Assembly: GCA_029582265.1 (NCBI GenBank)
Contig: CM055831.1
Span: forward strand, 24,876,682 to 24,940,681
DNA length: 64,000 nucleotides
Direction: 5' to 3'
DNA from: Zoroaster sp. YZ-2022
Lineage: Eukaryota; Echinodermata; Asteroidea; Forcipulatida; Zoroasteridae
Position 1 is the stretch's first letter. Each line of letters starts with the position of its first letter. Of this stretch, positions 213-63,538 are shown one piece after another. The notes under the pieces were generated by a model. It was not told the DNA's origin. It made no database searches and saw only the letters and a list, made by a program, of their open reading frames with translations. Made by a program: the position numbers and the translations under genes.

Positions 213-325
213 GTACCCTTACAAATGGCAAGAAGTTTGACTCGTCCCGAGATCGTGGTAAACCTTTTGAATTCAGAGTAGGAAAGGGTGAAGTTATCCG
301 TGGATGGGACGAAGGAGTCGCTAAA
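213..325 (+). CDS. FKBP1A: FKBP exon: GTLTNGKK to DEGVAK
   Basis: Acceptor TTATCAG ends at 212 and donor GTGAGT starts at 326. The exon is 113 nt. The first Gly codon is split (phase 1: G from the previous exon plus GT here), and the exon ends in phase 0 after the Lys of GVAK. It encodes the 40s loop and the start of the active-site helix of FKBP12. Confidence 0.95.
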
Positions 326-3323
326 GTGAGTAGTACATCTCAAATAATCAAGAACCAATTCCAGGGTTTGTCCCAAAATAGGTGGGGAACAGGCGTATGT
401 CCAGGGGGGAGGGAGACAGTCCCCTCTCCCACCTGCTTTTTGTTACTCTCCTACTATAGCTGCACTTTAGTGGCAAGTTTTGACTGTCGACCCAAATTTG
501 CACACACAGGCATTCTTGACTGGTTTTTACTGTCATTTTGACCACCCTCAACAATACCAGACAATGCTTTTACCAGTCAAAAACGGTCGACTCGTTTTGA
601 CCTGTAAATGTACTTAGTACACATAAGGTTTGACAGTGTTTGACTATAAAGTGCACTGGATATACCTTGGCAAGTATATCAACATTTTGACTGATTTTGA
701 CCCTTGTAGTAGTAGGAATGCAAATAATACAAAAATAAATGGAAAATATTTTGCTGCACAGTCAAAATTTAACCCGATTTTACTCTTAAAATGGTGGGGG
801 AGGGAGTTCTGTATATTCTGAGCAAAACCTTTCCGGGGGCTACTTTTTTCCCGAGGTGACAACTGTTTTCTTCGGCAAGATTTAGGGTTTAGATTTTATG
901 CACTTTCAGTGCTACTATGACACAGAGTTCTTGTTGTGTTCGAGCAAAACAGCACCCTTGGTACGGTCAAACATAATCATTAACCCTTGGGTCAAAATCA
1001 GTCAAAATGTTGATATACTTACCAAGGTATACCTAGTGCATTGAAAAGTCAAACACCGTCAAACCTTACAGGTCAAAAGCAGTTGACTGTTTTTGACTGG
1101 TAAAAGCATTGTCTGGTATTGTTGAGGGTAGTCAAAATGACAGTCAAAACCAGTCAACAATGCCCCTGTGTGCACAGTTGGTTCACCAGTCAAAATAGGC
1201 AGTAGATTAAATTTTCCATGCATGCATTGATGTATATATCTACATCTAATTGCATTTCATTGCTCAGATTCTTGCTTTATAAAGATTTTTAACGTGCAAT
1301 TTTGTGTTTATTCTTTCACAGATGAGCATTGGTGAGCGTGCAAAGTTGACGTGTTCTTCTGACTTTGCCTATGGTTCTAAAGGCCACCCCGGGATATATC
1401 CTTTTAAGCGATTTATAAACATTTAAAGGTTACACATATGACTGGCAATTAAAAAACCCTAAACTTGGACCCAATTTTAAAAAGTGAGATTTTGGTATAG
1501 TTTGATTCTCTAGATTTTCCTCTTTCATTTGATACCAGATTTGTAGAAATCAGGGAAAACAACAATTGTTCTTATAATATAAGAAAAAAATATAAGAAAA
1601 AAAAATTCTGATTTCTACAAATTTCATTTGATACCAGATTTGTAGAAATTGGGAAAAAACAAATTTTTCTTATAATATAAAAAAAATTCTACAAATCAAA
1701 CTATACCAAAATCTCACTTTTGAAAATTGGGTCCAAGTTTTGGGTTTTGCAAGTCACATACAGTATTAGTTTAGCTCTATGAACTTCTTCCTTCGTATAC
1801 ATGTCGGAGTTCTACCAATTAAATCCCTCAGCCCCCCCCCCCCCCTTACATTCAATGTGTTGAATAAAAATCATGCATTTTCCCACCATTTCCCTTCCCG
1901 TTTTCGCCCCTTAACCCTCCTACTATAGTGGCAAGTAGCTATAGTGGTCAAATCAAAGTGTCTGTTTTGACTGTTGACCTAAATGTGCACACAGGAGCAT
2001 TTTGATTGGTTTTTACTGTCATTTTGACCGCCCTGAACAATACCAGACAATGCTTTTACCAGTCAAAAGCGGTCGACTCATTTTGACCTGTAAATGTTCT
2101 TACTACACGTAAGGTTTGACAGTGTTCGACTTTTAAGTGCATTAGATATACCTTGGCAAGTATATCAAGTATATTTTGACTGATTTTGACCCTTGGCAGT
2201 CATAGAAGGGTTAAAAACAAAGGCACTCTTAGAAATTAAAATAAATTTATGACCCAGAGTGAACAATGCTTTGCTGGTCAAATAAGCGACCCATTTTGAC
2301 TGTCGATTATTTTGTGAAAAAAATAACAAAATTCTCATCTGAAAATGGCTCACAAAATATAAAACAAAAAACATACATCTTAAACAAAAACAATTACAAA
2401 AAAGGGAAGGATTAATGCATTGTGTCATTTCACTCGGCTTCACCTCATGAAATGGATCAGTTCAGATATTACCTTGTGATATATATGTGACCTGTCACCA
2501 CAAAATGAGCTTTAAGTCGGAAATTTAAACAATTGAGTTATTGGTATTTCTGGATTCAGTAGAACAAGAGCTTCCCAATGATATATAACACTTGGGGGTA
2601 CAGCGATCCCCCAGACCACCAGAGGGGGATTTGCGGCTTTGTTTCCGTCTTTTGTTTCTGTCTTTGTTTCAGTCTTTGTTTCAAGTTGTTTGTTAGAACG
2701 CGATAAAAGCTACCAACGAAATTGGCCTGAAATTGAGGTTTTTAATTGTATGACCGAACTGAAAATTTGGAATTTGATATAAGGAGATTTACAAATTGCA
2801 AATATAATAACAAAAAAATTAGACATCCCCTCTGATTTTTCACTTTTCCCACTTTACTGAGAAATGGTATAGTGCGACTTTACGCTCATTTCGTTGTAAC
2901 AGGTCACATGTGACTGGCTCTGGCAAAACCCTAAACTTGGACCCAATTTTCAAAAGTGACCTCCCAAATTTATCGTGAAAATTAACGATGTTCCCAACGA
3001 CGTTTCAGGATTTTTCTTTTTCCATCCAAATCTAGAGGAAATGCTCTATATGGTGACATGAAAACTGATCCCTCAAACGGGTCCCTGGGGTCAGTTTTGG
3101 ACCTTTTCATGGCTGTTACGCATTATGGTAAATGCCGAGAAGTTTCGGGTTTTGCCAGAGCGTGTCCCATATTCTTCCCTGTGTACTCTTAGGAACTCAG
3201 TACTTGTATAAATATGAACAACATCTATTTCCACTTTTGTCTGCTACTTATCCTTAACTTCTAATTACTATCCCATCGAATGCGACATTGATCTTTGATG
3301 TTGAGCTTTTGAGTATCAAGTAA
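213..3323 (+). CDS. FKBP1A: FKBP12-type peptidyl-prolyl cis-trans isomerase, 3' three coding exons (5' exons lie outside the window)
   Basis: Join 213-325, 1322-1395, 3269-3323. The spliced product covers the C-terminal three quarters of an FKBP12-class protein. It begins at [12 protein letters not shown], passes through [11 protein letters not shown] and [12 protein letters not shown], and ends in [10 protein letters not shown] followed by TAA. FKBP12 is a cytosolic prolyl isomerase of about 108 residues, the receptor for FK506 and rapamycin and a partner of calcium-release channels and type I TGF-beta receptors. The ligand-pocket residues expected in this part are visible: the aromatic residues of PFEF, the V-I-R-G-W floor, the Tyr of FAYG, the His-Pro of GHPG, the Ile-Ile that follows and the Phe of IFDV. 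Intron phases are 1, 0 and 2, and each splice keeps the frame. The first two exons (about 30 residues) must lie upstream of position 1. FKBP1A and FKBP1B cannot be separated in an invertebrate; the single ancestral FKBP1 is most likely. The gene is convergent with CCDC25. Confidence 0.95.
437..1215. repeat. Two inverted copies of the GTCAAAA-rich TTAA-type element in an FKBP intron
   Basis: 437-722 reads forward (CTCCTACTATAGCTGC at the left, TAGTAGTAGGA at the right). About 955-1215 is a copy in the opposite orientation. Shared words include the runs around GACCACCCTCAACAATACC and CCTTGGCAAGTATATC. The family's proper ends, TTAACCCTCCTA and TAGGAGGGTTAA, are degraded here; better copies lie at 1911-2214, 10948-11255, 12187-12485 and 53752-54069. 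The 326-1321 intron holds nothing else that I recognise. Confidence 0.75.
1322..1395 (+). CDS. FKBP1A: FKBP exon: MSIGERAK to GHPG(I)
   Basis: Acceptor TTCTTTCACAG ends at 1321. The exon is 74 nt (24 codons plus AT). Reading on without splicing gives a stop 11 codons later, so a splice is required after the GHPG codons. The only donor that restores the family sequence is ATATCCTTTT at 1396, the minor-spliceosome type. The first two bases of the following Ile codon are in this exon. Confidence 0.94.
1425..1757. repeat. Inverted-repeat (hairpin) element
   Basis: The left arm (about 1437-1510; AAACCCTAAACTTGGACCCA then AAAGTGAGATTTTGGTATAG) is repeated in reverse complement at about 1685-1752. 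A second pair of inner repeats (ATTTGATACCAGATTTGTAG) surrounds poly-A. A related left arm occurs again at 2925-2960. This looks like a foldback-type non-autonomous transposon. Confidence 0.7.
1911..2214. mobile_element. TTAA-flanked CCCTCCTA element (GTCAAAA family)
   Basis: TTAACCCTCCTACTATAG at the left and AGAAGGGTTAA at the right, about 304 bp. The inside is rich in GTCAAAA/TTTTGAC words shared with the copies at 10948-11255, 12187-12485 and 53752-54069. A TTAA duplication plus CCC-starting ends is the piggyBac-superfamily signature. There is no coding capacity, so it is a non-autonomous (MITE-like) copy. Confidence 0.75.
2487..2908. repeat. Inverted-repeat element with GTGACCTGTCACC ends
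   Basis: GTGACCTGTCACCACAAAAT at the left pairs with the reverse complement of GTTGTAACAGGTCAC at the right. AGTCGGA/GCGACTTTACGCTCATTT form a second, imperfect pair. No reading frame is credible. It fills most of the second half of the AT-AC intron. Confidence 0.55.
3269..3323 (+). CDS. FKBP1A: FKBP last coding exon: (I)[17 protein letters not shown] stop
   Basis: The exon follows the AC acceptor. T completes the split Ile codon; the rest reads through the family's last beta strand (LIFDVELL) to TAA at 3321-3323. The protein ends within one residue of the usual FKBP12 C-terminus. I did not identify the polyadenylation site in the following 3' flank. Confidence 0.94.
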
Positions 3324-13800: not shown

Positions 13801-16800
13801 AGATTTAAGGCAAAAAAAATTAAGTCTCCGGTTTCTGGTCTCCATGCGCGTCGCCATTTTTAATTTTCTTTTTTTTTTTGCTCTGAAACAATGTCCAATT
13901 GCAGCCAAAGTTGCTGGATCGATTGGAATTGCGCTGTGTTTTAAACAACTTTTTCACATAGGGGTATTAACGTTTGCCGAATTTATATATGGGAAATTTG
14001 GTCCCCGTGTATATGTATTACGTGATTACCATTAAAAAAAACACGTCACCGCACCGATTTTGAAGCCAACTGATGACCAGAAACAGGAGGCCTAAACCCA
14101 AATGGTGGGTCTCTCATTATCTCTGTAGCTCAAAGGTCTGATTCGACCCAAAGACCTGACCTTTGAGACAGTAACTGCAGCTAACTGAACTAGAGACTAT
14201 GTACTTACCATACATCTTCAGGAAAACCATATTTCAGTAATTCTTCATCTGAAAAGATGAAAACAAATGGGAAAATAAATTCAAATAATTTATAGGGAAT
14301 ATTTACATTTTATAATTACCCGATTACAAAATTACTTTCCTTTAACCCTAACTCCCTGAATCCTTCCTAACTCCCTAGGCCCACTTGCTTACACATAACC
14401 TGAATCCTTCCTAACTCCCTAGGCCCATTTGCTTACACATAACCTGAATCCTTCCTAACTCCCTAGGCCCATTTGCTTACACATAACCTGTATCCTTCCT
14501 AACTCCCTAGGCCCATTTGCTTACACATAACCTGTATCCTTCCTAACTCCCTAGGCCCATTTGCTTACACATAACCTGTATCCTTCCTAACTCCCTAGGC
14601 CCACTTGCTTACACATAACCTGTATCCTTCCTAACTCCCTAGGCCCATTTGCTTACATAACCTGTATCCTTCCTAACTCCCTAGGCTAACCTGTATCCTT
14701 CCTAACTCCCTAGGCCCATTTGCTTACACATAACCTGTATCCTTCCTAACTCCCTAGGCCCACTTGCTTACACATAACCTGTATCCTTCCTAACTCCCTA
14801 GGCCCACTTGCTTACACATAACCTGAATCCTTCCTAACTCCCTAGGCCCATTTGCTTACACATAACCTGTATCCTTCCTAACTCCCTAGGCCCATTTGCT
14901 TACACATAACCTGAATCCTTCCTAACTCCCTAGGCCCATTTGCTTACACATAACCTGAATCCTTCCTAACTCCCTAGGCCCATTTGCTTACACATAACCT
15001 GAATCCTTCCTAACTCCCTAGGCCCATTTGCTTACACATAACCTGAATCCTTCCTAACTCCCTAGGCCCATTTGCTTACACATAACCTGAATCCTTCCTA
15101 ACTCCCTAGGCCCATTTGCTTACACATAACCTGAATCCTTCCTAACTCCCTAGGCCCATTGCTTACACATAACCTGAATCCTTCCTAACTCCCTAGGCCC
15201 ACTTGCTTACACACAACCTGAATCCTTCCTAACTCCCTAGGCCCACTTGCTTACACACAACCTGAATCCTTCCTAACTCCCTAGGCCCACTTGCTTACAC
15301 ACAACCTGAATCCTTCCTAACTCCCTAGGCCCATTTGCTTACACATAACCTGAATCCTTCCTAACTCCCTAGGCCCATTTGCTTACACATAACCTGAATC
15401 CTTCCTAACTCCCTAGGCCCATTTGCTTACACATAACCTGAATCCTTCCTAACTCCCTAGGCCCATTTGCTTACACATAACCTGAATCCTTCCTAACTCC
15501 CTAGGCCCATTTGCTTACACATAACCTGAATCCTTCCTAACTCCCTAGGCCCACTTGCTTACACATAACCTGAATCCTTCCTAACTCCCTAGGCCCACTT
15601 TGCTTACACATAACCTGAATCCTTCCTAACTCCCTAGGCCCATTTGCTTACACATAACCTGAATCCTTCCTAACTCCCTAGGCCCATTTGCTTACACATA
15701 ACCTGAATCCTTCCTAACTCCCTAGGCCCATTTGCTTACACATAACCTGAATCCTTCCTAACTCCCTAGGCCCATTTGCTTACACATAACCTGAATCCTT
15801 CCTAACTCCCTAGGCCCATTTGCTTACACATAACCTGAATCCTTCCTAACTCCCTAGGCCCATTTGCTTACACATAACCTGAATCCTTCCTAACTCCCTA
15901 GGCCCATTTGCTTACATAACCTGAATCCTTCCTAACTCCCTAGGCCCATTTGCTTACACATAACCTGAATCCTTCCTAACTCCCTAGGCCCATTTGCTTA
16001 CACATAACCTGAATCCTTCCTAACTCCCTAGGCCCATTTGCTTACACATAACCTGAATCCTTCCTAACTCCCTAGGCCCATTTGCTTACACATAACCTGA
16101 ATCCTTCCTAACTCCCTAGGCCCATTTGCTTACACATAACCTGAATCCTTCCTAACTCCCTAGGCCCATTTGCTTACACATAACCTGAATCCTTCCTAAC
16201 TCCCTAGGCCCATTTGCTTACACATAACCTGAATCCTTCCTAACTCCCTAGGCCCATTTGCTTACACATAACCTGAATCCTTCCTAACTCCCTAGGCCCA
16301 TTTGCTTACACATAACCTGAATCCTTCCTAACTCCCTAGGCCCATTTGCTTACACATAACCTGAATCCTTCCTAACTCCCTAGGCCCATTTGCTTACACA
16401 TAACCTGAATCCTTCCTAACTCCCTAGGCCCATTTGCTTACACATAACCTGAATCCTTCCTAACTCCCTAGGCCCATTTGCTTACACATAACCTGAATCC
16501 TTCCTAACTCCCTAGGCCCATTTGCTTACACATAACCTGAATCCTTCCTAACTCCCTAGGCCCATTTGCTTACACATAACCTGAATCCTTCCTAACTCCC
16601 TAGGCCCATTTGCTTACACATAACCTGAATCCTTCCTAACTCCCTAGGCCCACTTTGCTTACACATAACCTGAATCCTTCCTAACTCCCTAGGCCCATTT
16701 GCTTACACATAACCTGAATCCTTCCTAACTCCCTAGGCCCATTTGCTTACACATAACCTGAATCCTTCCTAACTCCCTAGGCCCATTTGCTTACACATAA

Positions 16801-19083
16801 CCTGAATCCTTCCTAACTCCCTAGGCCCATTTGCTTACACATAACCTGAATCCTTCCTAACTCCCTAGGCCCATTTGCTTACACATAACCTGAATCCTTC
16901 CTAACTCCCTAGGCCCACTTGCTTACACATAACCTGAATCCTTCCTAACTCCCTAGGCCCACTTGCTTACACATAACCTGAATCCTTCCTAACTCCCTAG
17001 GCCCATTTGCTTACACACAACCTGAATGCTTCCTACCTCCCTAGGCCCATTTGCTTACACATAACCTGAATCCTTCCTAACTCCCTAGGCCCATTTGCTT
17101 ACACATAACCTGAATCCTCCCTAACTCCCTAGGCCCACTTGCTTACACATAACCTGAATCCTTCCTAACTCCCTAGGCCCATTTGCTTACACATAACCTG
17201 AATCCTTCCTAACTCCCTAGGCCCATTTGCTTACACATAACCTGAATCCTTCCTAACTCCCTAGGCCCATTTGCTTACACATAACCTGAATCCTTCCTAA
17301 CTCCCTAGGCCCATTTGCTTACACATAACCTGAATCCTTCCTAACTCCCTAAGGCCCATTTGCTTACACATAACCTGAATCCTCCAAAATCCTTCAGTAG
17401 TAAAGCAAGCACATGACATGTATGCACACATGTTTCTAATCTGTGATACATGTACATGGCCAGGGACCCTCCTTGCCTGCATGGAGCAATAAACAGTGTC
17501 CACTGACCCAAGCACTGACCTTGCAATCACTACAACAAACATGGATGTACATGTACCATGGAAAGGCAAGTATGCCTAATAACCTCAATCCTTCAAAATC
17601 CTTCACTTTAGCGAAGAGGATTTGGGAGGATTTGGGAGGATTTGGGAGGATTTGGGAAGGTTAGGGTTAAAAGATGATAGAGGATACACTTAAGAAGATG
17701 AAAGTGTAGTCAAGTGAGGATTGGACGCTATTTTGGGAGATTTTGAGCAATGAATGTATGCACATCCAGTGAGATGTTGGCCATTTTGTCATCTGCTAAA
17801 AACACATGCTTCGACATTGTGCACAAGTGGCGGTTGGGTTTGACATTCTTTCCATGGTACCATACATCCTGAATTTTTTCCGTCTGACTCTTTTAAGAAA
17901 ACATGAAAGTAATCCTGTGAGCAGCAGCAATTACATAATTATTTTAAAAATAGACTCTGAATGGAAGAGGTATTCGGACTAGGGCCAATGATATTGGGGG
18001 GGTGTCCAGTGTGTTGGTCCTAAACTAGGGCTATGAAATTAGCTAGTGAAACTCGGATTGTTTTCTGTACATCACTCATTTCTTATAGAGTATGAGTACA
18101 ATTCAGCCTCATCTTCACTTCATGAGAACCCAATTTTTATATATCAATCTGTAAACGTTTTTTAATTCAACTCCTCGGCAATAAACCCTTTCAAATTTGT
18201 GAAACTTACTTTCATATTTGTCGACTCCAACATAGATGACATAACCTGAAAAAAGTGGGAAAAGAATCACAACATTAATCCAACTATCATCTTCAACAAG
18301 CGCTATGCCCGCACAAGGCCCTTGTCACTACTATCAGCTTGTTAACCCTAACTACCCCAAATCCTCCAAAATCGTTCTCCTGGTTTTGCCTGATTTTGAT
18401 GGATTCAGTACTCCACAGTATAGCCCAGTGAATAGAGCATGTAGCCATGTGTACCAAAACCATCAAACTCCACCGGCTGCTTTTTGTTGGATTCAGGACT
18501 GTATAGCTAAGCCATGCCGGATGCTTTGCATTTGCTACTGTACCAATTCTAGCCCCCATTCTAGGGCCAATACACTGGATTCCCTCCGTATCCTTGGCCC
18601 TAGCCCCACATCATGTACAAAAAAGAAGCAATTTTTTTTTTCAACTTTTGATCTGCTAATTATTACAATCTAAACTTTTGTGATTAACGTTAGGTAAGCT
18701 TACCCAAGCAGACATATTTTACATAAATAAGTTCACTTTTGTGAAATCGGTAATTTTGGTGAAATTTTAATTTTATAATTTTTTTTTTTTAATTTCAAAA
18801 ATGTTTCGAAAATTTCATGAAAGTGAGCTATCCAAGAATAATGGATTTTATGCCAAAAGTGTCTGCTTGGGCAAGGTTACCTAACGTTAATCACTAAGTT
18901 TTAGATAGGCCTAGTAAAAAGTACCGTCCCCGTAGTAAAAACAGATCAAAAGTTGAAAAAATTTGTTGTACATGTGGTGCTAGGGCCAAGGAATTGACCC
19001 TCAGTTAGCAAAAATAAAGGATAACATTCTCCGATTAATGAACAAATTCAATCCATACCTTCACTCTTAAAATAGAAAACCAT
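10751..19083 (-). CDS. CCDC25: Coiled-coil domain-containing protein 25 (CCDC25), complete seven-exon gene
   Basis: Complement of join 10751-10832, 11886-12088, 13059-13162, 13636-13763, 14209-14248, 18210-18245, 19059-19083. The total is 618 nt: 205 residues plus stop, against about 208 in vertebrate CCDC25. The N-terminal NFACT-R/DUF814-type domain is clear: [43 protein letters not shown], then [21 protein letters not shown] long charged coiled coil follows ([20 protein letters not shown] on through [10 protein letters not shown]), and the family's acidic tail ends in DDFM. Every donor and acceptor follows GT-AG and every phase is consistent. Relatives include yeast Jlp2. Human CCDC25 has been reported as a surface sensor of extracellular-trap DNA; whether that applies here is unknown. 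Start codon: the only ATG giving MVFYF. The gene is head to head with BLCAP and convergent with FKBP. Confidence 0.97.
10948..11255. mobile_element. TTAA-type CCCTCCTA element (GTCAAAA family) in CCDC25 intron 6
   Basis: TTAA (10944-10947) then CCCTCCTACTATAGCTGC. The right end is TAGTAGTAGGAGGG with the flanking TTAA decayed to ATAA. Internally it is nearly collinear with 437-722 and 1911-2214. Confidence 0.8.
11301..11518. mobile_element. Palindromic CAGGGCATGGAATCGG element in CCDC25 intron 6
   Basis: Arms TTGTCACGATCAGAGCAGAC / GTTGATCGTGATGATACTGT and CAGGGCATGGAATCGGTGTG / GATTCCATGCCCTG. The centre CTCATTTATGCAGCAGCAAC is shared with all other copies. Confidence 0.82.
11521..11829. 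mobile_element. GGCC/TTA-type MITE (Harbinger-like) in CCDC25 intron 6
   Basis: GCCAAATAAAAAAAGTCTC at the left and ACCAGAAACCGGAGCC at the right. Internal AATGTCCAATTGCAGCCAAA and GAACGTTTGCCCAATTTGTG are diagnostic of the family. Confidence 0.7.
11886..12088 (-). CDS. CCDC25: CCDC25 exon 6: coiled-coil region VLSVKVDKR to AEE(R)
   Basis: A 203-nt exon, phase 0 in and phase 2 out, with donor GTGAGG. It encodes the Glu/Arg/Lys-rich coiled coil. An unspliced reading frame on this strand extends 13 codons upstream through the intron and is not the real start. Confidence 0.95.
12187..12485. mobile_element. TTAA-type CCCTCCTA element (GTCAAAA family, inverted) in CCDC25 intron 5
   Basis: CCCTCCTACTGCTACAAGGG at the left and AATAGTAGGAGGG at the right. 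The flanking target copies are decayed (CTAA, TTGA). The body runs in the opposite direction to the 10.9 kb copy, although both ends read CCCTCCTA inward. Confidence 0.78.
12602..13055. repeat. Two abutting dispersed repeats in CCDC25 intron 5
   Basis: 12602-12890 is a copy of the GAGAAGTAGCCACCAAGG repeat. 12917-13055 is a copy of the GGGTGTCTGGGTGTCTTTTA...TTTGGACACCCAAGTTCTA repeat, also found at 39645-41370 (split by a SINE), 58753-58905 and 60433-60610. The second one ends a few bases from the exon 5 donor. Confidence 0.8.
13059..13162 (-). CDS. CCDC25: CCDC25 exon 5: [13 protein letters not shown] to GFHKHKE
   Basis: A 104-nt exon; acceptor TTTTGCAG, donor GTAATC. It encodes [20 protein letters not shown], the best conserved block. 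The donor is bounded within about ten bases by a dispersed repeat (12917-13055). Confidence 0.95.
13330..13500. repeat. Dispersed repeat retaining the empty TTAA site of the 38.75 kb element
   Basis: TGACTCTTGAAGAATGTAAT through ATTATCTTTAAATTCAAGAG and on to GTACACCACCGGGTATCCGA matches 38706-38754 joined directly to 39389-39540. The 13367-13370 TTAA here is uninterrupted. Confidence 0.85.
13636..13763 (-). CDS. CCDC25: CCDC25 exon 4: [13 protein letters not shown] to KANSIT(G)
   Basis: A 128-nt exon; donor GTGAGT follows CCG. It holds the hallmark [14 protein letters not shown] of the NFACT-R/DUF814 fold, and then [20 protein letters not shown]. Confidence 0.95.
13808..14092. mobile_element. 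GGCC/TTA-type MITE (Harbinger-like) in CCDC25 intron 3
   Basis: TTAAGGC with AAGTCTCCGGTTTCTGG at the left; CCAGAAACAGGAGGCC with TAA at the right. The shared core AATGTCCAATTGCAGCCAAA is present. Confidence 0.75.
14209..14248 (-). CDS. CCDC25: CCDC25 exon 3: (N)[12 protein letters not shown](W)
   Basis: A 40-nt exon with acceptor CTTTTCAG and donor GTAAGT. The Trp codon is completed by exon 4. It is separated from exon 2 by the 3.96 kb intron that carries the 44-bp minisatellite. Confidence 0.93.
14346..17666. mobile_element. TTAA-flanked CCCTAAC element expanded by a minisatellite, in CCDC25 intron 2
   Basis: The element is bounded by TTAA at 14342-14345 and 17667-17670. It starts CCCTAACTCCCT and ends GGAAGGTTAGGG. 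The right 280 bp (17390-17666) is the ordinary body of a roughly 300-bp family seen at 43654-43906, 54289-54597 and 60699-60997; shared words include CATGGCCAGGGACCCTCC and AATAAACAGTGTCCACTGAC. The other 3 kb is the 44-bp array listed next. No reading frame belongs to it. Confidence 0.85.
14354..17390. repeat. 44-bp-period minisatellite, about 69 copies
   Basis: Unit: CCTGAATCCTTCCTAACTCC followed by CTAGGCCCATTTGCTTACAC and ATAA. Period measured between GAATCC words (for example 15001 and 15045). Variants are mostly single bases (CATTTG/CACTTG, GAATCC/TATCC, ACATAA/ACACAA), with a few short deletions such as near 14660-14690. Variants are clustered: TATCC units at 14490-14880 and CACTTG-plus-CACAA units at 15195-15310. 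This suggests local spread of variants. The period is not a multiple of 3. Confidence 0.97.
18210..18245 (-). CDS. CCDC25: CCDC25 exon 2: (G)[11 protein letters not shown](N)
   Basis: A 36-nt exon. Acceptor TTTTTTCAG and donor GTAAGT are both good, and both boundaries split codons in agreement with exons 1 and 3. It matches the Y-x-I-Y-x-G-x-DKYEN segment of the family. Confidence 0.93.
18342..18600. repeat. Degraded TTAACCCTAAC element in CCDC25 intron 1
   Basis: TTAACCCTAACTACCCCAAA at the left, then AATCCTCCAAAATC and TTTTGATGGATTCAG words as in the element at 59217-59658. No clear right end is visible. Confidence 0.5.
18679..18892. repeat. Inverted-repeat element in CCDC25 intron 1
   Basis: GTGATTAACGTTAGGTAAGC with TTACCCAAGCAGACA at the left is matched in reverse complement by TGTCTGCTTGGGCAAGGT and TACCTAACGTTAATCAC at the right. 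The middle is AT-rich. It is a roughly 214-bp foldback/MITE with near-perfect 40-bp arms, so probably a recent insertion. Confidence 0.8.
19059..19083 (-). CDS. CCDC25: CCDC25 exon 1: MVFYFKSE(G)
   Basis: ATG is at 19083-19081 on the minus strand, and donor GTATGG follows 19059. It encodes 8 codons plus one base. The next exon supplies GT to complete Gly. MVFYF is the invariant N-terminus of the family. Confidence 0.92.
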
Positions 19084-24151: not shown

Positions 24152-26790
24152 TATTGATGTACCTTCCCTTCAATGTATATCTTGATTCAAAGAGAGTAAG
24201 CATACTCATAGAAGCAGTTTTGTCAACATTACCAATTTTGTACCTTCCCTTCAATGTATATCTTGATTCAAAGAGAGTAAGCATACTCATAGAAGCAGTT
24301 TTGTCAACATTACCAATTTTGTACCTTCCCTTCAATGTATATCTTGATTCAAAGAGAGTAAGCATACTCATAGAAGCAGTTTGGCCAACATTACCAATGC
24401 TGTACCTTCCCTTCAATGTATATCTTGATTCAAAGAGAGTAAGCACACTCGTAGAAGCAGTTTGGCCAACATTACCAATGTTGTACCTTCCCTTTAAAAC
24501 CCTCCTATGCCCAGGCTGAAATTTGGCCCAGTCTGAAATTTGGCCCAGTCAGCACGGCACCCACAGACACTCACTTGAGTATTTTTGATTGCATTGCCAA
24601 TAGGTCAAACCACAGAGTCACAGAGCTGTGTATGTACTTGGTTTTGGTTTGACCTCCTTGAGTGCACTGCACAAAGTCAATGGGTTGGGAGTTACATACA
24701 AATTTTGAGTGTCTTTGGGTTTGACCTCCTATCACACAGCCACATGTGTTTGCATGTATTTGAGTGCACTGCACAATGTCAATGGGTTAAGAGAGACATA
24801 CAAATTTTGAGTGTCTTTGAATGTTAAACCTATAGGAGGGTTAATGTATATCTTGATTCATAGAGAGTAAGCATACTCATAGAAGCAGTTTTGCCAACAT
24901 TACCAATGTTGTACCTTCCCATCAATGTATATCTTGATTCATAGAGAGTAAGCATACTCATAGAAGCAGTTTGGCCAACATTACCAATGTTGTACCTTCC
25001 CTTCAATGTATATCTTGATTCAAAGAGAGCAAGCATACTCATAGAAGCAGTTTGGCCAACATTACCAATGTTGTACCTTCCCTTCAATGTATATCTTGAT
25101 TCAAAGAGAGCAAGCATACTCATAGAAGCAGTTTGGCCAACATTACCAATGTTATACCTTCCCTTCAATGTATATATTGATTCAAAGAGAGTAAGCATAC
25201 TCATAGAAGCAGTTTGGCCAACATTACCAATGTTGTACCTTCCCTTCAATGTATATCTTGATTCAAAGAGAGCAAGCATACTCATAGAAGCAGTTTGGCC
25301 AACATTACCAATGTTGTACCTTCCCTTCAATGTATATCTTGATTCATAGAGAGTAAGCATACTCATAGAAGCAGTTTGGCCAACATTACCAATGTTGTAC
25401 CTTCCCTTCAATGTATATCTTGATTCAAAGAGAGTAAGCGTACTCATAGAAGCAGTTTTGCCAACATTACCAATGTTGTACCTTCCCTTCAATGTATATC
25501 TTGATTCAAAGAGAGTAAGCATACTCATAGAAGCAGTTTGGCCAACATTACCAATGTTGTACCTTCCCTTCAATGTATATCTTGATTCCAAGAGAGTAAG
25601 CATACTCATAGAAGCAGTTTGGCCAACATTACCAATGTTGTACCTTCCCTTCAATGTATATCTTGATTCCAAGAGAGTAAGCATACTCATAGAAGCAGTT
25701 TGGCCAACATTACCAATGTTGTACCTTCCCTTCAATGTATATCTTGATTCCAAGAGAGTAAGCATACTCATAGAAGCAGTTTGCCAACATTACCAATGTT
25801 GTACCTTCCCTTCAATGTATATCTTGATTCAAAGAGAGTAAGCATACTCATAGAAGCAGTTTTGCCAACATTACCAATGTTGTACCTTCCCTTCAATGTA
25901 TATCTTGATTCAAAGAGAGTAAGCATACTCATAGAAGCAGTTTGGCCAACATTACCAATGTTGTACCTTCCCTTCAATGTATATCTTGATTCAAAGAGTA
26001 AGCATACTCATAGAAGCAGTTTGGCCAACATTACCAATGTTGTACCTTCACTTCAGTGTATATCTTGATTCAAAGAGAGCAAGCATACTCATAGAAGCAG
26101 TTTGGCCAACATTACCAATGTTGTACCTTCTCTTCAATGTATATCTTGATTCAAAGAGAGTAAGCATACTCATAGAAGCAGTTTTGCCAACATTACCAAT
26201 GTTGTACCTTCCCTTCAATGTATATCTTGATTCAAAGAGAGTAAGCATACTCATAGAAGCAGTTTGGCCAACATTACCAATGATGTACCTTCCCTTCAAT
26301 GTATATCTTGATTCAAAGAGAGCAAGCATACTCATAGAAGCAGTTTGGCCAACATTACCAATGTTGTACCTTCCCTTCAATGTATATCTTGATTCAAAGA
26401 GAGTAAGCATACTCATAGAAGCAGTTTGGCCAACATTACCAATGTTGTACCTTCCCTTCAATGTATATATTGATTCAAAGAGAGTAAGCATACTCATAGA
26501 AGCAGTTTGGCCAACATTACCAATGTTGTACCTTTCCTTCAATGTATATCTTGATTCAAAGAGAGTAAGCATACTCATAGAAGCAGTTTTGCCAACATTA
26601 CCAATGTTGTACCTTCCCTTCAATGTATATATTGATTCAAAGAGAGTAAGCATACTCATAGAAGCAGTTTGGCCAACATTACCAATGTTGTACCTTCCCT
26701 TCAATGTATATCTTGATTCAAAGAGAGTAAGCATACTCATATGAGCAGTTTTGCAAACATTACCAATGATGTACAGTCATGTACCTTCCC
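24152..26790. repeat. 81-bp-period minisatellite, about 28 copies, both strands open
   Basis: Unit: TGTACCTTCCCTTCAATGTA, TATCTTGATTCAAAGAGAGT, AAGCATACTCATAGAAGCAG, TTTGGCCAACATTACCAATG, T. The period of 81 is 27 codons, so frames stay open along the array on both strands. Predicted proteins repeat VYLDSKRVSILIEAVWPTLP (+) and SMLTLFESRYTLKGRYNIGN (-). These are artefacts: there is no non-repeat domain, no splice context, an in-frame stop before the array on the minus strand, and single-base indels (for example near 25780 and 25998) break the frame. The array is interrupted by the TTAA element at 24498-24840. Confidence 0.95.
24498..24840. mobile_element. TTAA-type CCCTCCTATGCCC element inserted in the 81-bp array
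   Basis: It splits one array unit: CCTTCCCTTTAA before it and TTAATGTATATCTTG after it. Ends are CCCTCCTATGCCCAGGC and CCTATAGGAGGG. It is the same family as 21207-21553 but with a small internal deletion. It was inserted after the array had formed. Confidence 0.9.
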
Positions 26791-28262: not shown

Positions 28263-29838
28263 TGTGACGTGAGATGGTGTTCACGTCGCTTTGTCTCACT
28301 AAATTAATCTCTTTAAGTATTCCTTAACTATATCAGAGTGTTACCTTCAAAAACAAACTGTTTAGGGTTCTAAATCATATTTGTTTTCTAAATAAAATCT
28401 TGCAGCAGTAGATATGTACCGTCGAACGTACAATGTACATCTGCCGCGCGCGGCCACTTGACCGCTGCTCATTAATATTCATATTTAGATAACACGTGTA
28501 CTCTGTGACCATATAAGGATACGTCAATTTATTACTTCTTTTTGATCCCAGTATTACCAATAGCATATTTAAACATGGATTTGTAAATTGTATTATTCTT
28601 AAATAGTTATTCCTTCAAGAATAATTGTTTAAAGTAATTAACTTGTGCATATTTAACTTTTATTTGTGATAATCGTCTGCATTGCAAGCGCGCGAGTTTT
28701 GGATGCTGCGCCAACCAACTTTGGGCCAATGAAAATAGTGTCGCTGCTGCGCCGCCGTTAATTGTATAAAGCTAGCTAGCTAAGGCAGTGTTTCAGCAAA
28801 TTTTAATTTCACGATCAGTTGCTGGAAGTTAAGCTCGCTGTAATTATCAGGTTAGTGTTGTAATGTTTATATGAAACAGATTGAACCCACATTGATTGCT
28901 TTTAAATGACTTGATTTATTGAATTCTATAAATAACATTGCTTGGATAAAATGTGTGTTTTGCATTATAATTTGTTCTCAAGATAATAGTAAATATTAGA
29001 AGAATTTAAGTGACATTTTCTTGGTACATCGTACCTACATATATAAATTATAGGCCATCTCGTTTACTATCTCCATTATGACTTACTGTCGGGAACTTGA
29101 CTTATTTACTGAGGCTTTAGTTGTTTAGGAACATATATTAATGTTTTGTGCATATTTATGAGGTAATTATTAGTTGCTGGAAGTTAAGCTCGCTGTAATT
29201 ATCAGGTTACGTGAGGTTGAGCAGCAACTCCTCCGCATGACTCCGCATCACAACGAGGTGTTTACACTAGCACTATAACCGGCGCGGCGGAGTCAAGTTT
29301 ACGAGTAGATAAACGGGGGACTATACTACCAGTGGATGCGTTCACTGCGATGCCAGTATAGGAGCTTCGTTGTACATCTATCCGGGACGGGCGGAGTAAT
29401 TTATATTCAGCGGAGAGCTGACGATTAAGACGTTTAACCCAGTCTGGGACTGGCGGAGTAACTTAAATTCATCAGCCGGTAGCTGACGATAACCCAGTCT
29501 GGGACACTGGCGGTGTAATTATTCATTAGCTTAGAGCGGAGGGCTACGTTTAGTGTATTGACGGAGTTAAACAGAGCACAACATTATTGTATGATTGCTA
29601 TAATTTTAACATATTTTGAGTTGAGATGTAAATAAATTGTTGAAACTGTTAGACAGGCGTCATTCTTAGTTCTTACGTTGTAGTCCATCTCTTCAGTAAA
29701 TATTTATTGACTGCCTGGTTGTATATTTCAACCCAACGGACTTGGGGAAGATAAATTTATTTGTACCACGGTGATCAGATTGGTAGGAGACACTGGCACT
29801 AGAGTTGCAACAGCGCCCCCACCGACCGCCGCGTCACA
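28263..29838 (+). mobile_element. Solo LTR, 1,576 bp
   Basis: It starts TGTGACG and ends CGTCACA (seven-base inverted ends with the TG..CA rule) and is flanked by CTAT at 28259-28262 and 29839-29842. A TATA box TATAAA at 28765-28770 and a polyadenylation signal AATAAA at 29631-29636 give a plausible U3-R-U5 order on the plus strand. A 38-bp stretch starting AGTTGCTGGAAGTTAAGCTC is perfectly repeated at 28817-28854 and 29172-29209; the first copy ends in a donor-like CAG/GTTAGT. There is no internal region or second LTR, so this is the product of LTR-LTR recombination. It is an LTR retrotransposon of unassigned clade. Confidence 0.82.
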
Positions 29839-60900: not shown

Positions 60901-63538
60901 TATGGATGTACATGTACCATGGAAAGGCAAGTATGCCTAATAACCTCAATCCTCCAAAATCCTTCACTTTGGCAAAGAGAATTTGGGAAGGTTAGGGTTA
61001 ATCTAGGACACCGATTCCATGCCCTGTTGGAAGTCTGGTCTGATTTTGTCCCTTTAAATAAAAATAAAACTTTTGGAAAGTTTGTACCCCGCTACAAGTG
61101 TCACAATACATAATCGCCAGTGCTTAGCTGAGAGACACCTACAATTAATAATAATAATAATAATAATGTGTGGACTTATATAGCGCACGTATCCACCAAC
61201 TGAGTGGTGCTCAAGGCGCATTATATTATTACCCCTGCTCATAAGGCTCATAAATCATTCCTGAAACCATCTCAGCTCCCTGGGGAGTATACAGCTCAAT
61301 TGCTGCCATTACAGCGCATATAGGGCTAATCAACCAACTTTGCCCTCACAGGTACCCATTTAACCCCTGGGTGGAGAGAAGCAATTATGGTTAAGTGTCT
61401 TACTCAAGGACACAAGTGTCACGGCCGGGATTCGAACCCACATTCTGCTGCTAACACCAGAACTTGAGTCCGGTAAGCTAGACCGCTCGGCCATGACACT
61501 CCAATTGCTCCAATCACGCGTGTACCATGGACATTGGCAAATTCATTTGCATAGACCTCTGTATGGCGGCTCCTTTGTGATCCAACAGTTGGCTAACCAC
61601 TTTGTTTCTTACTTCTGAAAGCTGAAAAGACTGGCCTAATATCATTTCCATGGAATTTCTGACTTTTGTGATTTTTGTTTTTCAGTCGCGATATATTTTT
61701 TAATCATGATTTGCTGATATCTCGATAACTTGAAAAGTTCTCGATATCGTAATCGAATAAAAAAGGTATCGCGATATTTGATATCATCGTATTATCGCCC
61801 AAGCTTAGGCCCCTTGGCCCAATTTCATCGAGCTGCTTAGCAGCCGATTTTCCGCTTATTGTACGTTTATTCATTTCATAGCATTGCTAACCGTTAAGCA
61901 TAGAGAAAGGCATGCTAACTTGCCGGCCGTTATTGCTAATAATAATAATAATAAAGATTTTTAGCGCGCACATATCCACCCTGCTGGGCACTCAAGGCGC
62001 GGAAACAAAGAAAAAACATTAATACAAACAATATACAATGATAGCATAGGGAAAACAAATTATGTACCGAGATACATGTACCTACAATGCAATTACAAAT
62101 ATATACATCATCTTTGAAGAGTTGTGACATAAGATGAGTTTTAAGCATCGACTTGAATCTGGTTATACTATGACAAGATTTGAGTTTAGTTGGAAGATGA
62201 TTCCAGAGTCTCGGAGCTGCGACAGAAAACGACCTATCACCCCAGTTCCGTTTTGAAGTTGGTTCCTTGAGGAGTGACATGTTACTGGAGCGCAAATTGC
62301 GTGATGAAGTGTAGACTTTAAGTAGTTCAGAAATATAAATTGGAGCAATGTTATTAAAAGATTTGTGAACAATTAGCATTAGCTAAGCGAATGAGTGACG
62401 CAACAGTACAATTTTCTTGCTAACCTGTGAATTGTGTACATGTAGGTTGGTAAAATTCTTGCGTCGGGAGATAAACAATTGATTTAATTTTGCCCTACAC
62501 CGACGTGTGTATAGCACTGTATACTCAGTGCTTTCCGAGTGTCTGTGAAAAAACTACACAGGCGACTCGGGCGGGATTCGAACCCACGACCTCCTGCTTA
62601 CTAGTGCAGACGTCTTAACCTCTCGACCACCGAGCTTGCCTGATGACAATTGGCCGGCTAGAATCCCATATAGCAGCGGGTTCCGCGATATATATAGGTT
62701 GGTGAAATTCTTGCGTCGGGAGATAAACAATTGATTTAATTTTGCCCTACACCGTCGTGTGTATAGCACTGTATACTCAGTGCTTTATGCTGTGAATTAT
62801 GCTTATGACATAAAACACAATAAAGGGGGCCACTTTGCATCCGTCACGTTAGCAGTTTTTCCAATGGTTGTTATTTATTTTTAAGTACCTGAAATCGACC
62901 AAAAAGTGTTTCAACATGTGAATGGACATGCAGGCTTATACTAGAACTAATTTGAGTTGATTTATTTTATTTTTAAAATTTTTAAAATTATTTTGTTACC
63001 CTCAAATTTCCATAAAAATTGGACGGAAAAAGTTACCTCACTTTTCCGTCCATTTGTTGATGGAAATTTTAGGGTAATTAAAAAAATAATAGTAATAATC
63101 AACTCAAATTATCTTTAGGATAAGCATGCATGTCTATTCAAATGTTGAAATTCTTTTTGGGTGGTTTCAGATATTTGAAAAAAAATTACAACCATTAGAA
63201 AAACTGCTAACGTGACGGTAGTAAAGTGGCCCCCTTTATTGTGTTTTATGTCTTATGCTTACCGGTAAGCAGCGCTATGAAGTTGGGCGCTGGTCATTTC
63301 TAAGGTTTACATGTAGTGTGTCTCTTGTATCAAAACTTTATTTTGAATTTGTGTATATGCAGAGTGTGATTCATGCTGTCGTTGCTAAGTTAGCGAGGGG
63401 AGACCGTGCCTTCCAGAGTAGCTTTGCGATTCGTCTACAGCACATACAGTCCGAGGAGAGTCACTGGCTCCACAGGGATCTCACTATTGGTCAGATCAAA
63501 CAGAAGTACGAGAAGATACACCCGGCATTAGAATGGAG
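54871..63538 (+). CDS. PTK2: Focal adhesion kinase (FAK/PTK2), first two coding exons; gene continues past the window
   Basis: Join 54871-54972, 63363-63538. It encodes MASFNKAAEKLTLKIFQPNG..SFNSVKCMETTDIK, then SVIHAVVAKLARGD..FAIRLQHIQSEESHWLHRDL and IKQKYEKIHPALEW(R). This matches the FERM F1 lobe of FAK: an N-terminal beta strand of the form ERVLKVF, then the block RLxHLxSEExHWLHxDM..KYExxHPPEEW. FAK is a cytoplasmic tyrosine kinase acting at integrin adhesions; its FERM domain autoinhibits the kinase and binds receptors and phosphoinositides. Kinase and FAT domains lie beyond position 64000. The N-terminal tail before the FERM domain is short (about nine residues, against about 34 in vertebrates). 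PYK2 is the vertebrate paralogue; invertebrates usually have a single FAK. The 8.4 kb intron is almost entirely mobile elements. Confidence 0.93.
55014..55383. mobile_element. TTAA-flanked CCCTCCTACTG element in FAK intron
   Basis: TTAA 55010-55013 and 55384-55387; ends CCCTCCTACTG and AGAAGTAGGAGGG. The body is a third, unrelated type: CCATTTGAAACC, CCATTCAAAACCA and CAAACAAGGTTTTGTATTAG words repeated two or three times in both orientations. Confidence 0.88.
55407..55690. mobile_element. GGCC/TTA MITE (Harbinger-like) in FAK intron
   Basis: TTA 55404-55406 then GGCCAAACGGCCTCCGGTTT; reversed core ATTTTGGCTGCAATTAGACA. The right end is decayed near AAAATGCCTACACG. Confidence 0.68.
56309..57969. 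mobile_element. hAT-like element with CAGGGTTCGTAC ends, 1,661 bp, carrying a TTAA element
   Basis: CAGGGTTCGTAC at the left and GTACGAACCCTG at the right; TAATAATA duplicated at 56301-56308 and 57970-57977. Subterminal AAGTCATGGAAAGTCATGGA words on both sides. Inside: the TTAA element 56445-57169, then sequence of unknown origin (57174-57840) with no recognised protein. Confidence 0.85.
56445..57169. mobile_element. TTAA-flanked AACCA/TTTGCGTC element (relative of CCAGTTGACG family)
   Basis: TTAA 56441-56444 and 57170-57173; ends AACCAATTTGCGTCAG and CCCGACGCAAACTGGTT. It shares GATCGGAGAGCGTCTAAACA with the 38.8 and 49.3 kb elements but is about 25% longer, with many GTTGACGTG repeats. Confidence 0.8.
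58020..58740 (-). mobile_element. LINE 3' end and adjoining repeat
   Basis: 58139-58740 on the minus strand keeps a reverse-transcriptase C-terminus: SYLSELLQPY, RSWGKRSFAAAAPLWNDLPE, FKTALKTHLM. It then runs to ATGCGC..CATT and an ATT microsatellite at 58139-58155. 58020-58138 is the GAAACGTCGAG repeat also seen at 9355-9500. Confidence 0.75.
58753..58905. repeat. GGACACCC repeat, intact copy
   Basis: TTTCCAAATTTGCTGGAAAT, AGGGTGTCCAAATTGTTCAC and CAAAAAGACACCCAGACACC; reference for the split copy at 39645-41370 and the inserted copy at 60433-60610. Confidence 0.8.
59217..59658. mobile_element. TTAA-flanked CCCGAACC..GGTTAGGG element in FAK intron
   Basis: TTAA 59213-59216 and 59659-59662; 442 bp. 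The body has seven to eight CCTGAATCCA(C/T)CAAAATCC-type words, mostly in the same direction, ending in an inverted GGATTTTGATGGATTCAGGG. CCTGAATCC is also the start of the 44-bp unit. Confidence 0.82.
59698..60010. mobile_element. AAGGCTGTG-ended element, second copy
   Basis: AAGGCTGTGCATTTATGG at the left; GGTACCCGGCACAGCCTT at the right. Reverse orientation of 41529-41913 (CGGGTACCCGTAATTTTTTT; AGAGACTTCCATTTGTGTGG). Confidence 0.78.
60362..61055. mobile_element. Palindromic CAGGGCATGGAATTGG element with two separate insertions
   Basis: Pieces 60362-60432, 60611-60698 and 60998-61055 join into a standard family member. 60433-60610 is a GGACACCC repeat copy flanked by CGGTGA/CAGTGA. 60699-60997 is a TTAA-flanked CCCTAAC element with TTAA at 60695-60698 and 60998-61001. 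Confidence 0.9.
60699..60997. mobile_element. TTAA-flanked CCCTAAC element with exactly one 44-bp unit
   Basis: CCCTAACTCCCTAGGCCCAT..TTGCTTACACATAACCTGAA at the left, GGGAAGGTTAGGG at the right; 299 bp. This is the unexpanded counterpart of the 3.3 kb element in CCDC25. Confidence 0.92.
61147..61500 (-). mobile_element. tRNA-derived SINE type (ii), full length
   Basis: From the head (GTCATGGCCGAGCGGTCTAG; GTGGGTTCGAATCCCGGCCG) on the minus strand through CACCCAGGGGTTAAATGGG and CTGAGATGGTTTCAGGAATG to GCGCCTTGAGCACC..GGTGGATACGTGCGCTATAT and ATTATTATT. It is the best complete copy. Confidence 0.9.
61940..62385 (-). mobile_element. LINE 3' end: reverse-transcriptase C-terminus and (TAA)n tail
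   Basis: The minus-strand frame of about 147 codons reads IVHKSFNNIAPIYISELLKV, then NLRSSNMSLLKEPTSKRNWG, DRSFSVAAPRLWNHLPTKLK and FKSMLKTHLM. S-F-S-V-A-A-P-R-L-W-N-x-L-P is the classic extreme C-terminus of CR1/L2-like LINE polyproteins. The 3' end is GCGCCTTGAGTGCCCAGCAG..GGTGGATATGTGCGCGCTAA plus an ATT microsatellite. It is 5'-truncated. Confidence 0.82.
62446..62790 (-). mobile_element. tRNA-derived SINE B with doubled tail
   Basis: tRNA-like head at 62560-62635 on the minus strand (GCTCGGTGGTCGAGAGGTTA; GTGGGTTCGAATCCC). The tail GACGTGTGTATAGCACTGTATAC (in pieces) with TAAACAATTGATTTAATTTTG occurs twice, at 62446-62530 and 62697-62787. Confidence 0.78.
62813..63245. mobile_element. 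Long-armed inverted-repeat element
   Basis: Arms of about 65 bp: AAACACAATAAAGGGGGCCA..CGTCACGTTAGCAG..CCAATGGTTG against CAACCATTAG..CTGCTAACGTGACGG..TGGCCCCCTTTATTGTGTTT. An inner pair TGGACGGAAAAAGTTACC/CACTTTTCCGTCCA is at 63021-63052. It lies 118 bp from FAK exon 2. Confidence 0.85.
63363..63538 (+). CDS. PTK2: FAK second coding exon (FERM F1 lobe)
   Basis: Acceptor GTGTATATGCAG ends at 63362; donor GTAAGT starts at 63539. 176 nt: 58 codons plus AG, completing Arg in the next exon. SEESHWLHRDL and KYEKIHPALEW are the diagnostic residues. An unspliced frame that starts at 63255 is not the real start. Confidence 0.94.

Follow-up and report, generated by a model that had tools for sequence, protein, structure and literature searches.

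We found that positions 1396-3268 of a sea star genome window, judged from the DNA sequence, almost certainly represent an intron of the U12 type with AT-AC ends, and that it belongs to an animal FKBP1 (FKBP12) gene. The window is the whole stretch that was analysed, 64,000 nucleotides (nt) from Zoroaster sp. YZ-2022 (assembly GCA_029582265.1, contig CM055831.1, positions 24,876,682 to 24,940,681). U12-type AT-AC introns are recognised in DNA by their donor, their branch site, the distance from branch to intron end, the termini and the reading frame, and all of these fit here. A first-pass annotation of the same DNA had proposed an AT-AC intron of an FKBP12 gene here, with its donor, branch motif and terminal AC, and each of these was found again in our analysis. 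Based on predicted proteins of distant animals, a U12-type intron very probably occupies the same codon in the same phase in those animals and was present in an early animal ancestor. The ancestral form was probably AT-AC rather than GT-AG.

The FKBP1 gene and its last splice junction

The 5′ edge of the window falls inside the FKBP1 gene, which is read from the plus strand and of which the window covers only the 3′ part. Joining of the three exons (213-325, 1322-1395 and 3269-3320) gave 79 residues followed by a TAA at 3321-3323. The Pfam domain FKBP_C matched this product with an expectation (E) value of 1.8e-29. In the Protein Data Bank (PDB) 161 distinct sequences matched it, and the 60 that were listed were mostly FKBPs or FKBP fusions. 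Solved FKBP1A and FKBP1B chains matched with E values of about 1e-35, the alignment reaching residues 30-106 of the 107-residue chains. By Pfam and PDB, the product therefore carries an FKBP_C domain with the C-terminus of FKBP12, as expected of an FKBP1 gene. Among the 120 relatives listed, the highest identity (85%) was to FKBP1 of the starfish Asterias amurensis, and 84% was reached by the sponge Suberites domuncula, the starfish Asterias rubens and three further records. These identities are in keeping with an echinoderm or another invertebrate. In the alignment with the solved FKBP12 chains of 107 residues, the codon split by the AT-AC intron (AT|T) corresponds to residue 90. Ile90 and Ile91 of FKBP12 belong to the FK506 pocket, and residue 90 is a drug-pocket residue.

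The missing C-terminus (17 residues, then TAA) begins at 3269, immediately 3′ of TCCTTAACTTCTAATTAC. We enumerated the joins of each donor at 1340-1420 to each acceptor at 3230-3300 that keep the frame into the last exon, 797 in total. None of these had GT-AG or GC-AG ends and four had AT-AC ends. The join at 1395/3269 was the only one with standard termini that restored GHPGIIPSNATL; the first-pass annotation had named the same junction. A slide by one base (1396/3270) gives the same protein, again with GHPGIIPSNATL, and leaves the non-standard ends TA-CT. The AT-AC termini are thus found at the very junction that is fixed by protein homology. Because no GT-AG join in the tested ranges yields the C-terminus, a gene model that allows only GT-AG loses the last exon, and as far as these ranges go the earlier warning to this effect was justified. 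It had also been pointed out that a GT-AG exon elsewhere that supplies the C-terminus would speak against the AT-AC intron; there was none among the tested joins, and when the window was scanned in its six frames, the C-terminal motif turned up only in the exon at 3269. Two further candidates were set aside. The six-frame scan and tblastn listed no match that would point to another FKBP copy in the window or to another exon with the C-terminus, and for the site of the AT-AC intron itself 0 of the 797 joins offered a twintron or an alternative with GT-AG or GC-AG ends.

Strength of the U12 signals

Eight of eight donor positions from +1 to +8 (1396-1403) agree with the U12 consensus ATATCCTT, and the branch site (3251-3258) likewise has 8 of 8 bases of the consensus TCCTTAAC, both consensus sequences being those given in the available part of PMC2831892. 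The branch A (3257) stands 11 nt 5′ of the final base of the intron (3268), in line with the 11-12 bases noted earlier, and the available part of PMC3584512 gives 11-13 nt as the optimal distance between branch and 3′ splice site. By eye, no polypyrimidine tract is evident between branch site and intron end, but pyrimidines are abundant in a stretch immediately upstream of the branch site. This stretch could be taken to indicate that the major (U2) spliceosome removes the intron, as it does with AT-AC introns of sodium-channel genes, and the pathway is not settled by AT-AC termini as such (PMC2831892, available part). However, according to the same source G occupies +5 in every U2-type AT-AC intron of the sodium-channel genes, whereas position +5 is C here and belongs to a ATATCCTT without mismatch, and a fully matching U12 branch site stands at the distance that is optimal in the available part of PMC3584512. 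We consider splicing by the major spliceosome highly improbable.

The AT-AC features could also have arisen by chance, in a pseudogene or a gene with broken exon order. In a simulation of 300 windows of 64 kilobases (kb), in which an exact donor, an exact branch site and an AC 8-16 nt away had to fall in an intron of at most 20 kb, 76 of the 300 windows held at least one such combination; the real window has one. Because of this frequency the co-occurrence of the motifs alone is weak evidence, and we dropped it as proof of a U12 intron. In the window, however, the motifs stand exactly at the junction fixed by homology, for which the product of their base frequencies is 4.3e-10, and further predicted proteins show the same signature at this codon (see below). 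As regards a pseudogene, the N-terminal exons lie outside the window, which holds only the 3′ part of the gene, but the joined 79 residues are intact and 84-85% identical to FKBP1 of Asterias and Suberites domuncula. A chance origin of this kind is, in our view, extremely improbable.

When the motifs were loosened, the whole window contained a single AT-AC combination, which was the 1396..3268 intron, and 20 GT-AG combinations. All 20 of the latter end at 28336 or 28338, and 18 begin in a tandem array. A tandem array at 14355-17383 has a 44-nt unit with 61 copies in its main row and 97-98% matches, and GTATCCTT, a word resembling a U12 donor, occurs in nine copies of it by repetition only.

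The AT-AC subtype accounts for about 26% of human minor introns in the available part of PMC10639083 and for about 22% in that of PMC6717393, so it is a minority and not exotic.

Layout of the locus and repeats

The coordinates of the exons, introns and splice signals are collected in Table 1. The acceptor of the intron between exons A and B is TTCTTTCACAG.

Table 1. Exons, introns and splice signals at the FKBP1 locus (positions in the window)
Feature	Position	Strand	Remarks
FKBP1 coding exon A	213..325	+	113 nt, begins mid-codon; preceded by ...TTATCAG, followed by U2-type donor GTGAGT
A-B intron, ordinary GT-AG (U2-type)	326..1321	+	GTGAGT...TTTATTCTTTCACAG
FKBP1 coding exon B	1322..1395	+	74 nt, 3′ end ...GGC CAC CCC GGG AT
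AT-AC intron, predicted U12 type, last coding intron	1396..3268	+	1873 nt, phase 2
U12-type 5′ splice site ATATCCTTTT	1396..1405	+	consensus per PMC2831892 (available part)
U12-type branch site TCCTTAAC	3251..3258	+	3257 assumed as branch A
AC 3′ terminus of the AT-AC intron	3267..3268	+	intron end ...TAATTAC
Last coding exon C	3269..3323	+	52 nt coding + TAA (3321-3323); begins T ATC CCA TCG AAT

Both introns contain repeats. The A-B intron has an inverted pair at 478-607 and 1066-1195 (89% complementary), and the repeat recurs within the AT-AC intron at 2002-2168, which is 92% alike to 516-682; both introns thus seem to have received the same element. Near the AT-AC donor there is another inverted repeat, of 55 nt, at 1453-1507 and 1694-1748 (96% complementary, 186 nt apart), part of which is seen again at 2920-2959.

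Elsewhere in the window, two tandem arrays with an 81-nt unit (24158-24494 and 24843-26774) give rise by repetition to long repetitive open reading frames on both strands. A Pfam search of nine other open reading frames of the window gave one sub-threshold match and nothing else. The Rfam scan of the window at gathering thresholds returned only one transfer RNA, a tRNA-like match on the minus strand at 62563-62636 (RF00005, 45.2 bits).

Read-through of the same boundary in other animals

When a phase-2 U12 donor is not spliced, its translation at the split codon spells I-Y-P or V-Y-P (M-Y-P for AT|GTATCC); the U2 donors GTAAGT and GTGAGT in the same phase give an immediate stop. We used exon B with its read-through tail as query in two protein searches, the second of them based on the frog sequence. 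The first search gave 592 candidates (591 passing) and the second 163 (162 passing), and the best 120 of each were listed. Together with an unbiased search, for which 120 were also listed, 274 FKBP proteins were obtained.

The signature G[I/V/A]YP was found precisely at the split codon in 26 of the 274 listed proteins, in searches that were biased towards it; 24 of these were first met in the first read-through search (best 120 of 592) and 2 in the second. All 26 abandon the FKBP sequence right after Y-P, where one of them (P0194) ends, and the tails beyond it differ from each other except for the near-identical pair P0133/P0157. Four are annotated proteins of named species, namely the mites Leptotrombidium deliense (P0125) and Dinothrombium tinctorium (P0202), the tick Rhipicephalus microplus (P0194) and the brine shrimp Artemia franciscana (P0129). 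In these annotated FKBP1 proteins the conserved C-terminus is replaced by the read-through tail. Two others have sponge-like cores, P0142 being 98% identical in its core to FKBP1A of Halichondria panicea (P0032) and P0123 95% identical to Suberites ficus (P0006). Protein P0241 consists of exon B alone and starts with the same residue as exon B of the window. Many of the 22 that carry no species name begin with non-FKBP residues just before G-T-L, the start of exon A, and therefore look like genomic reading frames that enter from an upstream intron. By these observations, an intron of this kind would seem to lie at this codon also in the mites, the tick, the brine shrimp and the sources of the sponge-like proteins. 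As the signature is shared at one codon by distant animals, the intron probably dates far back in animal history and has probably been misannotated in some species.

In 7 of the 26 proteins the residue before Y is I, which excludes G at intron position +1 in these cases if the junction has phase 2. For these seven I-Y-P proteins at least, AT-AC ends are therefore more likely than GT-AG ends. The form G-M-Y-P was seen in none of the 274 listed proteins. Y-P was followed by F in 10 proteins, by S, T and N in 3 each, by L in 2 and by D, C, V and I in 1 each, the remaining protein ending there.

Several points weigh against this interpretation. The 26 read-through proteins are a biased sample: the queries held Y-P-F, so that proteins with Y-P were favoured twice, when candidates were picked by shared words and when they were ranked. 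The signature was found in 0 of the 120 proteins listed in the unbiased search. Only 4 of the 26 carry species names, and the evidence consists of predicted proteins. Position +8 cannot be T in 9 of the 26, so that the donors in some lineages are weaker than the consensus. No vertebrate-named protein was among the 4 read-throughs of the frog-based search (best 120 of 162). In addition, the binomial estimate of chance given below leaves the word-based selection of candidates unmodelled.

The G[I/V]YP proteins could accordingly be chance read-throughs or sequence errors, with the U12 intron as a local peculiarity, and the presence of YPF in the queries, the few named species, the variation at +8 and +9 and the empty unbiased search would all fit with this. 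However, the 23 proteins with a full core fell into 12 clusters at 90% identity (the 3 without a full core were excluded from clustering), which indicates that the 26 are not one species counted repeatedly. Even if all 592 candidates were read-throughs, random dipeptides would give Y-P about 1-1.5 times, as compared to the 24 found. A local peculiarity is also difficult to reconcile with the departure of all of them from FKBP right after YP, with tails that differ apart from the pair mentioned above, and with the many that begin like genomic frames just before exon A. We regard it as unlikely, and an early animal origin of the intron is the interpretation that we prefer.

Two other possibilities were followed and dropped. 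Vertebrate read-through was sought with the frog-based query, which returned only P0202, P0125, P0127 and P0241 among the best 120 of 162; this is weak evidence, as vertebrate read-throughs may simply be absent from the database. Contaminant eukaryotic DNA with a homologous exon-intron boundary was sought as well, and two scans of viral collections gave 0 matches. In genome contigs of prokaryote collections the same boundary gave 18 matches, of which 0 had an FKBP exon upstream.

Possible consequences for FKBP12

FKBP12 is the target of FK506 and rapamycin and a widely used drug target, and it is a partner of the ryanodine receptor and the TGF-beta type I receptor. We infer that its last coding intron would be excised by the minor spliceosome, and this applies likewise to the ancestry of the intron and to any regulatory effect on FKBP12. 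The minor spliceosome (U11/U12, U4atac/U6atac and U5) would recognise ATATCCTTTT together with TCCTTAAC. Following what is established for AT-AC introns, the donor would be paired by U11 and subsequently by U6atac, and U12 would pair with TCCTTAAC. Excision would then join the AT|T of the codon aligned with residue 90. The frame past exon B reads ATATCCTTTT and soon reaches a stop, and with the intron kept the last 17 residues of the fold are lost. Since intron retention removes these residues, the minor spliceosome would be needed for FKBP12 of full length.

If the last coding intron needs the minor spliceosome, the levels of the latter could set the supply of FKBP12. Minor-spliceosome levels are reported to change with stress via U6atac, and minor introns have been proposed to act as switches under the control of unstable U6atac (PMC3728624, available part). 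By analogy, such a switch might act on FKBP12 via U6atac.

The predicted FKBP1 of the four named arthropods appears truncated, the annotation having run into the AT-AC intron, and the present findings could be used for correcting FKBP12 annotations. The G-[I/V]-Y-P signature also suggests a cheap way of searching for U12 introns in protein databases without a genome sequence. Tentatively, and with somewhat less than even confidence, we propose a wider interpretation: a previously unreported AT-AC U12 intron that may have occupied the residue-90 codon of FKBP12 ever since sponges and bilaterians last shared an ancestor, that may place a central regulator under minor-spliceosome control, and that may have led annotation to truncate FKBP12 in several animals.

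Comparison with known introns

A full-text literature search, to which supplements and the databases U12DB, IAOD and MIDB did not belong, found no report of a U12 intron in FKBP1 among the papers listed. FKBP was absent from the main text of the minor-intron papers PMC10639083, PMC2831892, PMC7367187, PMC6717393, PMC8034651, PMC3584512, PMC2846911, PMC3728624 and PMC8767276. In the available parts of PMC11136669, PMC11876696, PMC545797, PMC8384624, PMC5260091 and PMC11233911, FKBP and U12 or minor introns are mentioned together on other matters, these being FKBP4/5 (FKBP52/51), FKBPL and a splicing protein of Arabidopsis that has an FKBP domain. If vertebrate FKBP1A keeps the intron, it may well have been entered in U12DB, IAOD or MIDB without comment.

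U12-type GT-AG introns have the donor core TATCCTT, and their branch site and its distance are as in the FKBP1 intron. The FKBP1 intron differs from them in its AT-AC termini, and G at +1 is ruled out by the I-Y-P read-throughs of other proteins. With the U2-type AT-AC introns of sodium-channel genes it shares the AT-AC termini; those introns have G at +5 (PMC2831892, available part), whereas the FKBP1 intron has C at this position and a U12 branch site. The closest comparison is with the U12-type AT-AC introns of prospero/PROX1, PHB2 and Syx6/STX6, which are described as common to fly and human in the available part of PMC2831892. The FKBP1 intron has the ATATCCTT donor, the TCCTTAAC branch site and the AC end in common with these, and differs from them in its host gene, which here is FKBP1.

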